64,000 bases of DNA, from contig NZ_CP097329.1 in the NCBI RefSeq assembly GCF_030323025.1, positions 341,001 to 405,000 on the forward strand. The letters run 5' to 3'. Every line of letters starts with the position of its first letter. The stretch's first letter is position 1. A program made the position numbers and the translations under genes. The notes beneath the pieces were generated by a model. It was given only the letters and a program-made list of their open reading frames with translations, had not been told where the DNA came from and did not search any database. Positions 13,155-61,430 of the stretch are shown piece by piece. The stretch is from Pseudanabaena mucicola str. Chao 1806 (GTDB taxonomy: Bacteria; Cyanobacteriota; Cyanobacteriia; Pseudanabaenales; Pseudanabaenaceae).

Positions 13155-13259
13155 TAAGTAGCCAGACATAAGTAAACTAAAAACCGAGAGTTTTGTTCCG
13201 CCCGCTTAGCGGGCGGAACAAAACTCTAGTTTGGGTTTTAATTAAGTTTAGTTACTTAA
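13155..13259. repeat. F3 palindromic element, copy c
   Basis: TAAGTAGCCAGACATAAGTA ... TTAGTTACTTAA ends with a perfect hairpin AGTTTTGTTCCGCCCGC-TTA-complement. Its closest relative is copy d at 34565, whose stem is one base pair shorter in both arms. It lies just downstream of the rimI stop codon. Confidence 0.82.
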
Positions 13260-14901: not shown

Positions 14902-15048
14902 AACGTCAGTTCGGGTTAGGCTGGCAAATCTTAAAAGCCCAAAAGTAAAAGCCTTGCTAGGCAAGGCTTTTACTTTTGAGCTTTGAGAGAGGGTTTGCGT
15001 AGCAAACCCTCTCTCAAAGCCTGTTTCAAATTATCCCGAACTCGCGTT
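14902..15048. repeat. F1 palindromic element, copy 2
   Basis: A 147-bp element, AACGTCAGTTCGGG ... CCCGAACTCGCGTT, same plus-strand orientation as copy 1. Both hairpins are nearly perfect. In the element orientation of copy 4 its GGGTTTGC hairpin carries loop TAC where copy 4 has GTA. No clear target duplication. Confidence 0.85.
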
Positions 15049-16430: not shown

Positions 16431-16680
16431 AACGCGAGTTCGGGATAATTTGAAACGGGCTAAGAGAGAGGGTTTGCTATGCAAACCCTCTCTCTTATAG
16501 CGGTTTTCATTTTGCCTACGGCAAAATGAAAACTCAAAACTCTTAATGGGACTGATTTTTTGTTTTCAAATGAGTGTGTACTCATTTGAAAACCGCTATA
16601 GCCCCAAAATAAAAGCCTCGCTAAGCAAGGCTTTTATTTTGGGGCTTTTAAAATTTGCCAGCTTAACTCGAACTGACGTT
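16431..16680. repeat. F1 element, copy 3, interrupted by an F4 element
   Basis: F1 ends AACGCGAGTTCGGG ... CTCGAACTGACGTT are 250 bp apart instead of 147 because a complete 105-bp F4 element sits between the two F1 hairpins. Removing F4 leaves 145 bp. The F1 part is in the same orientation as copy 4. The rest of the 16218-16862 spacer holds a small hairpin (AAAAGTCTCA...TGAGACTTTT, 16267-16291) and no gene. Confidence 0.85.
16496..16600. repeat. F4 double-hairpin element, copy a (nested in F1)
   Basis: A 105-bp element with ends TATAGCGGTTTTCA / TGAAAACCGCTATA and two perfect hairpins: TTTTCATTTTGCC-TAC-arm and TTTCAAATGAGT-GTGT-arm. It is identical to copy b at 61220-61324 apart from the two loops. 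TATA at both ends would fit insertion at a TA dinucleotide, as for IS630/Tc1-type elements (inference). Confidence 0.9.
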
Positions 16681-24149: not shown

Positions 24150-24506
24150 ATATTAATGCTTATTAATGCTCAATCCGTATGTGACTTACTTTATAAACTT
24201 GTGGCTCTGGGTCTGAATATCCTCATTACTCCGATCTTGGATAATGCTCGTTACTAAAAGTTTGCTTTAGTTTTTGAGTTATCCAAGTCTTTAAACATCG
24301 AGCTTCTCTATTTGACTACTTATTCTCCAAACTTAAACTTGATTGAGCGTCTTTGGGAATTTGTGAAAAAGCAATGTCTCTACTCAGTTTATTATCCTGA
24401 TTTTGATTCTTTCAAATTTGCTATTGCTTCTTGTCTTGAGAATTCTTACACTACTCATAAAGCATCTTTGGGTTCTTTATTAACCTTGCGCTTTCAGTCT
24501 CTTTAA
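24150..24506 (+). pseudogene. IS630-family transposase C-terminal fragment
   Basis: One frame reads LLYKLVALGLNILITPILDN, a stop, then LVFELSKSLNIELLYLTTYS, PNLNLIERLWEFVKKQC and a tail ending LLTLRFQSL-stop. The LDNA and NLIERLW motifs carry the last two acidic residues of the IS630/Tc1 DDE/DDD catalytic site. The N-terminal half is absent and there is an in-frame stop after ILDNARY, so it is dead. It abuts the IS4 fragment. Confidence 0.8.
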
Positions 24507-25760: not shown

Positions 25761-25792
25761 AGTTTTCATTTTACCTACGGCAAAATGAAAAC
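25761..25792. repeat. F4-related half element
   Basis: AGTTTTCATTTTACC-TAC-GGCAAAATGAAAACT equals the first hairpin of F4 with one mismatch; the second hairpin and both TATAGCGG ends are absent. The surrounding 25585-25886 spacer has no gene. Confidence 0.65.
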
Positions 25793-25886
25793 TGCAATAG
25801 TGCATGCCTCTTAACTAAGAACCCATTTAAATGAAGTTCTAGGTTGGGCAGTAATTCTGAAATGGATTCTTAACTAAATATAACTA

Positions 25887-61219: not shown

Positions 61220-61324
61220 TATAGCGGTTTTCATTTTGCCGTAGGCAAAATGAAAACTCAAAACTCTTAATGGGACTGATTTTTTGTTTTCAAATGAGTA
61301 CACACTCATTTGAAAACCGCTATA
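61220..61324. repeat. F4 double-hairpin element, copy b
   Basis: 105 bp, TATAGCGGTTTTCA ... TGAAAACCGCTATA. The two loops are GTA (61241-61243) and ACAC (61300-61303), exactly the reverse complements of the TAC and GTGT loops of copy a. Every other base is identical. Confidence 0.92.
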
Positions 61325-61430
61325 GCTTAGAATTTGTAGTTTTTATCCGAATTATTAAGTATTATGGTATATTCAAAAAATAATTTAATTTGACTCTATT
61401 TATCTCCAAATAATTACAAATAATCAATTT

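Follow-up and report, generated by a model that had tools for sequence, protein, structure and literature searches.

Strong hairpins in the genome of the source strain are probably two-state elements whose tips are inverted in place by template switching, with the repeated element F4 as a bystander. Comparison with a second genome of the same species places the inversions at the same genomic site and finds them in F4 and in unrelated hairpins alike. They depend on stem length, with a threshold near 10-12 bp and more frequent flipping of longer stems, and neither repeats nor F4 are required.

Two F4 copies in the window differ by inversion of both loops

The window is the whole 64,000-base stretch that was analysed, positions 341001-405000 of the single-contig genome of the source strain (G000; 4,530,340 bases). 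The original prediction was that two copies of F4 in the window differ only by inversion of both hairpin loops, and pairwise comparison bears this out. The copies at 16496-16600 and 61220-61324 mismatch at 7/105 positions, namely positions 22-24 (TAC in the 16496 copy, GTA in the 61220 copy) and 81-84 (GTGT and ACAC, respectively). Each differing loop block is the exact reverse complement of its counterpart, while the spacer between the hairpins keeps its orientation. The flanks of the two copies are unlike, save for GC as the next two right-hand bases, and the copies are therefore two separate insertions. Chance substitution was rejected as the cause of the loop differences, since an exact 3-base mirror change by substitution alone has a probability of ~5e-9 per hairpin at the observed divergence. 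The features of the window are listed below, with their state in the comparison genome G058, a same-species Pseudanabaena metagenome-assembled genome (MAG) in 160 contigs.

13187-13227, no strand: hairpin unrelated to F4, stem 19, loop TTA (TAA in G058), flipped in place
14940-14978, no strand: hairpin unrelated to F4, stem 18, loop TAG (CTA in G058), flipped in place
16461-16497, no strand: hairpin adjoining F4 copy 1 on the left, stem 17, loop TAT (ATA in G058, with one more substitution)
16496-16600, plus strand: F4 copy 1, a 105-bp MITE including TA at each end, loops TAC/GTGT, identical loops in the G058 orthologue L129
16498-16598, no strand: F4 element proper (TAGCGG...CCGCTA), one TA per side counted as target duplication, boundary placed by analogy with empty sites at two other F4 insertions
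16503-16533, no strand: hairpin 1 of copy 1, stem 14 bp, loop TAC at 16517-16519, unflipped relative to G058
16534-16561, plus strand: spacer of copy 1, 28 bases between the hairpins, one orientation, the query that finds 62 copies
16562-16593, no strand: hairpin 2 of copy 1, stem 14 bp, loop GTGT at 16576-16579, unflipped relative to G058
61220-61324, plus strand: F4 copy 2, loops GTA/ACAC, from pairwise comparison with copy 1
61227-61257, no strand: hairpin 1 of copy 2, loop GTA, with TAC at the orthologous G058 site (L040/L149), flipped in place
61286-61317, no strand: hairpin 2 of copy 2, loop ACAC in both genomes by orthologue comparison

Across the window, 4/25 aligned hairpins with a stem of at least 10 were flipped relative to G058, and another 12 were unaligned. 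Immediately to the right of the 61220 copy (window 61339-61346), G058 carries ~135 additional bases (C123:28998-29133).

Two mutually inverted loop states dominate across F4 copies

The F4 spacer, allowing up to 3 mismatches, occurs 62 times in G000, and tabulation of all of these copies, as had been proposed from the window alone, shows that two mutually inverted states dominate, with pure two-state combinations in 56/62. The loop 1/loop 2 states were TAC/ACAC in 22 copies, GTA/ACAC in 18, TAC/GTGT in 10 and GTA/GTGT in 6; the remaining six comprised TAC/ACAT, AAC/ATGC, GTT/GAGT and TAA/ACAC once each, together with two truncated copies containing loop 1 only. Random loop sequences, the pattern that was named in advance as refuting, were not seen among the 62 G000 copies, where rare point-mutant loops do exist. 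The spacer likewise occurs 62 times in G058, two of these (L168 and L185) being contig ends that match one G000 site; the states, in the same order, numbered 20, 16, 16 and 4, with three further combinations found in one copy each and another three copies in which only loop 1 was present. Among 23 G000 copies that are identical outside both loops, 22 were distributed over the four combinations (9, 6, 4 and 3) and one was TAC/ACAT. The state of loop 1 was not significantly associated with that of loop 2 (Fisher p 0.77 in G000 and 0.09 in G058), and the hairpins of an element flip more or less independently of each other.

A search of 58 genomes detected F4 in G000, in 24/24 other members of the genus, in 1/10 members of other genera of the family and in 0/23 more distant genomes. 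Taking only the best match per genome, congeners show the loop-1 pair TAC/GTA and also TGC/GCA, and loop 2 is more varied. An F4-like match was also found on a plasmid of Pseudanabaena sp. ABRG5-3 (NZ_AP017563.1, 98486-98590).

Hairpins are inverted in place at orthologous F4 sites

Copies at separate sites cannot alone show recurrent flipping, whereas flips at orthologous sites can. F4 copies of G000 and G058 were paired by their flanks, giving 57 rows for 56 G000 loci (L027 was counted once), with no accepted G058 partner for 6/62 G000 copies. The paired flanks were 99.5% alike, with a divergence of 0.50% across 31,421 aligned bases. Hairpin 1 was flipped in place at 21/56 sites and unchanged at 35; 19 of the flips were exact, so that two reverse-complement states exist at one locus within the species, and 2 carried a further change. 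For hairpin 2, there were 4 flips and 49 unchanged loci among 53 that could be scored. Of the two copies in the window, the one at 61220 has a flipped hairpin 1 (GTA in G000, TAC in G058), while the one at 16496 is identical in both genomes. These in-place flips support the earlier claim of a hairpin-flipping process, and its recurrence is evident from the presence of all four combinations among otherwise identical copies in addition to independent flips at many sites in the two genomes.

Although both stems are 14 bp, the flip rates of hairpins 1 and 2 show a fivefold contrast (Fisher p 2e-4), with 16 loci flipped in hairpin 1 only versus 2 in hairpin 2 only (p 0.0013). Relative to substitutions per site, this corresponds to ~139 flips per hairpin for hairpin 1 and ~16 for hairpin 2. 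The description of the process as active holds on the scale of strain divergence, hairpin 1 having flipped ~0.7 times per copy during 0.5% divergence; at ordinary bacterial mutation rates this would be far too slow to produce mixed reads in one culture. A search for mixed loops in the reads of a single culture would therefore probably be negative, and such a result would not refute flipping. One G058 contig (C135) joins F4 orthologues (L155 and L156) whose G000 counterparts, at 4257 kb and 2021 kb, are separated by ~2.2 Mb, reflecting either a rearrangement or a chimeric contig.

Flipping depends on stem and loop geometry

The survey beyond F4 covered 590,706 bases of G000 and the matching G058 contigs, of which 520,168 bases were aligned at a divergence of 0.577%. 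All hairpins with a perfect stem and a 3-10 base loop were scored, with unaligned hairpins and perfect palindromes dropped. Flips per hairpins scored were as follows.

Stem 6: 1/750; 7: 0/189; 8: 0/53; 9: 0/24; 10-11: 1/21
Stem 12-13: 3/17; 14: 4/30; 15-16: 9/28; 17-18: 10/22
Stem 19-20: 8/23; 21-24: 8/26; 25 or more: 4/14
Pooled, stem 6-9: 1/1016; at least 10: 47/181; at least 12: 46/160
Pooled, stem 12-16: 16/75; at least 17: 30/85
Loop length (stem at least 12), 3: 34/90; 4: 0/16; 5: 4/12; 6: 1/5
Loop length (stem at least 12), 7: 6/15; 8: 0/5; 9: 1/15; 10: 0/2

The step between stems of 6-9 and stems of at least 10 agrees with a requirement for arms longer than ~9 bp, and the sole flip at stem 6 was an exact 5-base inversion. 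At stems of at least 12, 37 of the flips were exact and 9 of the 46 were approximate, the latter class (FLIP+) being assigned by majority rule where the sequence resembled the mirror image more closely than the unflipped form. A process specific to F4 was rejected, as unrelated and single-copy hairpins flip too. For stems of at least 15, a fit with saturation at one half put the flip rate per hairpin at 111 times (CI 67-206) the substitution rate per site. Models were compared by AIC, with values of 244 for a constant rate, 202 for stem length, 192 for stem and loop length, and 191 for predicted DNA stability and loop length; the fit could not tell apart the effects of stem length, predicted DNA stability and G+C next to the loop, which correlate with one another. 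None of the 16 hairpins with a 4-base loop was flipped, 14 of these being hairpin 2 of F4, and the poor flipping of this loop class is not predicted from stem length alone.

A scan for inversions that made no use of hairpins recovered 75 inversion-compatible mismatch clusters, with a flanking stem of 0-2 in 50, 4-6 in 3 and at least 10 in 22; it leaves out clusters with alignment gaps and so undercounts relative to the hairpin survey (22 vs 47). Inverted-repeat arms thus flank the inverted segments, with 22 inversions at stems of at least 10 and nearly none at stems of 3-9. Perfect hairpins with a stem of at least 12 are dense in G000, numbering 185 in the 590,706 bases, whereas 175 kb of E. 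coli K-12, counted identically, contained 4. Two flipped hairpins (G000 4057954 and 4055338) have an outer stem pair changed on both sides with pairing kept.

Mechanism of tip inversion

Template switching between the arms is the most likely mechanism. A nascent strand would copy the first arm and then re-pair with the corresponding arm on the other parental strand or on a sister strand; the loop would be copied from that strand, with a return after the second arm, amounting to a two-hop intermolecular template switch. The tip inverted in this way would comprise the loop plus whatever part of the inner stem pairs imperfectly; since the outer arms are reverse complements of one another, they would look unchanged. 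F4, a 105-bp MITE with two 14-bp-stem hairpins and ~62 copies, would be a bystander that displays the inversion. Support for template switching comes from the sufficiency of arms far below 20 bp, as in the spacer inversions of yeast.

The principal alternative, a possible though clearly less probable one, is a crossover between the two arms of one molecule, either by cutting and rejoining of an extruded cruciform or by short-homology recombination. Its product would be identical, mirror-image mismatches included, and it would fit a flip rate that climbs with stem length or predicted stability. It would also fit the scarcity of arm homogenisation, the usual companion of template switching, which was not prominent here (25 one-sided and 3 two-sided stem-pair changes). 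Against a crossover, stems of 10-14 bp flip, and this length is short for RecA-type recombination, while cruciform cutting as usually described leads to hairpin-capped breaks and not to inversions.

The comparison rests on assemblies, one of them a MAG, which is the largest doubt concerning the flips: a hairpin reads alike on both strands, loop orientation in a MAG may be ambiguous, and a de Bruijn graph needs words longer than the stem to fix the orientation of a loop. An assembly or sequencing artefact is nonetheless improbable. Its effect would be confined to stems with a length of at least about k-1, yet 17/96 hairpins with stems of 10-16 are flipped, and there is no jump in the flipped fraction at the longest stems (4/14 at 25 or more). 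The fivefold difference between the two 14-bp-stem hairpins of F4 (21/56 versus 4/53) is unexpected from an assembler, and all four loop combinations occur inside the single-contig assembly G000 alone.

We also considered that no inversion occurs in place and that pre-existing loop states are spread by transposition or gene conversion, given that F4 is mobile and that near-identical donor copies of each state exist. As the main cause, this is contradicted by flips at the same insertion site, by flips in single-copy hairpins and by a mismatch carried along with the loop, making it very unlikely. Hairpins whose arms are unique in the 590,706 bases flipped at least as often as those with repeated arms (16/40 versus 30/114, p 0.11), and two of the 16 flipped unique-arm hairpins that were checked have no second copy anywhere in the genome, so that flipping does not require a donor at another site. 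At one locus (L088/L189), a private stem mismatch was inverted as a mirror image together with the loop, from GCCGTAGAC to GTCTACGGC, and at G000 1614817 and 902520 an inner-stem mismatch was likewise carried as an exact mirror image in the flip. Transposition or conversion may contribute a minor share of the F4 loop states. A dedicated site-specific invertase acting on hairpin tips would suit the pace at stems of at least 15, and is the least credible reading, because flipped hairpins share no sequence, have loops of 3, 5, 6, 7 and 9 bases, and contain no shared recombination site of the kind found in phase-variation invertase systems.

Comparison with E. coli and with known inversions

In E. 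coli K-12 versus HS (127,085 aligned bases, 0.53% divergence), 0/12 hairpins with a stem of at least 10 were flipped, only 2 of these having a stem of at least 12. Species-wide, three E. coli hairpins (stems 16, 11 and 10) were unflipped in at least 5310/5375, 4369/4759 and 5065/5375 matched genomes, figures that derive from identity bands and leave room for a flipped loop in at most 65, 390 and 310 genomes, respectively; a fourth was unreadable from identity bands owing to flanks that are too variable. This set consists of few hairpins, one with a 4-base loop, that are maybe under selection. It hints that the pace of flipping in the present genome is special compared with E. coli and not universal, unless selection holds those terminators. 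Between G000 and a single-contig congener (G002), 13,703 bases were aligned and one hairpin with a stem of at least 10 was scored, as an indel, which is too little to corroborate the flips independently of the MAG.

The kind of change is already known from plastids, yeast and rRNA loops, and its pace and breadth look to be the new part. Plastid minute inversions, at trnH-psbA and other loci, are alike in that arms flank a two-state reverse-complement loop, within species and with homoplasy; in the portion of the report available, form A is represented by 19 sequences and form B by 16, with arms of at least 18 bp (PMC2903610). The plastid loops described there are 25-27 bp at particular loci (PMC2903610), whereas those reported here are mostly 3-9 bases and are spread along a bacterial chromosome as well as within a multicopy element. 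Spacer inversions in Saccharomyces cerevisiae, according to the excerpt available, occur only with arms longer than 9 bp and are explained by intermolecular template switching; they too are reversible and alter only the loop between perfect arms, with ten events in coding sequences (PMC8604942) compared with 47/181 hairpins with a stem of at least 10 between two genomes here. The accessible part of a study of rRNA hairpins describes 69 loop-only inversions consistent with template switching, bacterial examples included (PMC8794818); these are mostly 4-base, partly self-complementary and under RNA selection, in contrast to the strongly non-palindromic DNA loops here. A genome-wide rate of hairpin-tip inversion in a bacterium was not found in the literature searched, whose coverage leaves out most subscription journals.

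Tentatively, this lineage may be unusually permissive for tip inversion, such that strong hairpins accumulate and their tips serve as fast, reversible two-state markers. Possible causes would be, for instance, a hairpin-cutting nuclease that is lacking or restrained, or a replication habit common to plastids; the available text of a survey of cyanobacterial repair genes contains no mention of SbcC/SbcD (PMC5101192). If this is true, the flip rate would be set by stem and loop geometry, and one mutational habit would be common to cyanobacteria and plastids. Scattered reports of loop inversion become a measurable rate in this genome, where 62 nearly identical F4 copies act as two-hairpin reporters beside hundreds of further hairpins; the stem threshold is clear, and hairpins 1 and 2 supply an internal contrast at equal stem length. 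Among free-living organisms the system offers a parallel to the minute inversions of plastids, one whose mechanism could be examined genetically. Strain comparisons blind to flips would count each one as 2-7 clustered substitutions.

F4 is a MITE with IS630-type ends

F4 is a MITE that duplicates a TA target and has ends of the IS630 type. One G000 copy (L038) is absent from G058 and one G058 copy (L159) is absent from G000, and each of the two empty sites, one per strain, has a 2-base overlap in place of the two TAs that border the inserted element, indicating a TA-duplicating mobile element that has been active since the strains split. Empty sites were not found for G000 copy L001, which has no orthologous flank in G058, only repeats, or for G058 copy L153, whose left flank was not found in G000. 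The terminal inverted repeats are TATAGCGGTTTTC at both F4 ends, and ATAGCGGTTTTC occurs exactly 126 times in the genome. The locus at G000 997498-998577 has the ends of F4 and is identical to it over the left 79 bases; between the ends lie matches to the IS630 transposase profile, and the transposase looks interrupted; another IS630-type locus begins with TATAGCGGTTTTCAAATGAG, the outer arm of F4 hairpin 2. On account of these shared ends and the left 79 bases, F4 looks like both ends of an IS630-type transposon joined by internal deletion. IS630-Tc1-mariner MITEs resemble F4 in having terminal inverted repeats, TA duplication, no genes and ends in common with IS630-type transposase loci; F4 differs from them in its two internal hairpins, whose flipping is independent of transposition. 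REP/REPIN sequences mobilised by RAYT have, in the portion of the source available, a GTAG or CGTC tag beside the hairpin (PMC3733652), and inspection of F4 detected neither tag, its hairpins being preceded by TATAGCG or the spacer.

Several related sequences were noted. An IS630-profile fragment with one stop (L326) lies at 24162-24440 of the window, with an F4-like hairpin end bearing one arm mismatch 1.3 kb beyond it (25762-25793). An F4 copy in L092 (G000 2662000-2667000) is seemingly split by a 1.3-kb insertion with a 403-aa transposase-like ORF, which we take to be IS256-like. Finally, pairs of F4 terminal repeats ~43-44 bases apart, at G000 1724531-1724574, 2031577-2031619, 2252319-2252362 and 2333354-2333396, look like single-hairpin mini-elements.
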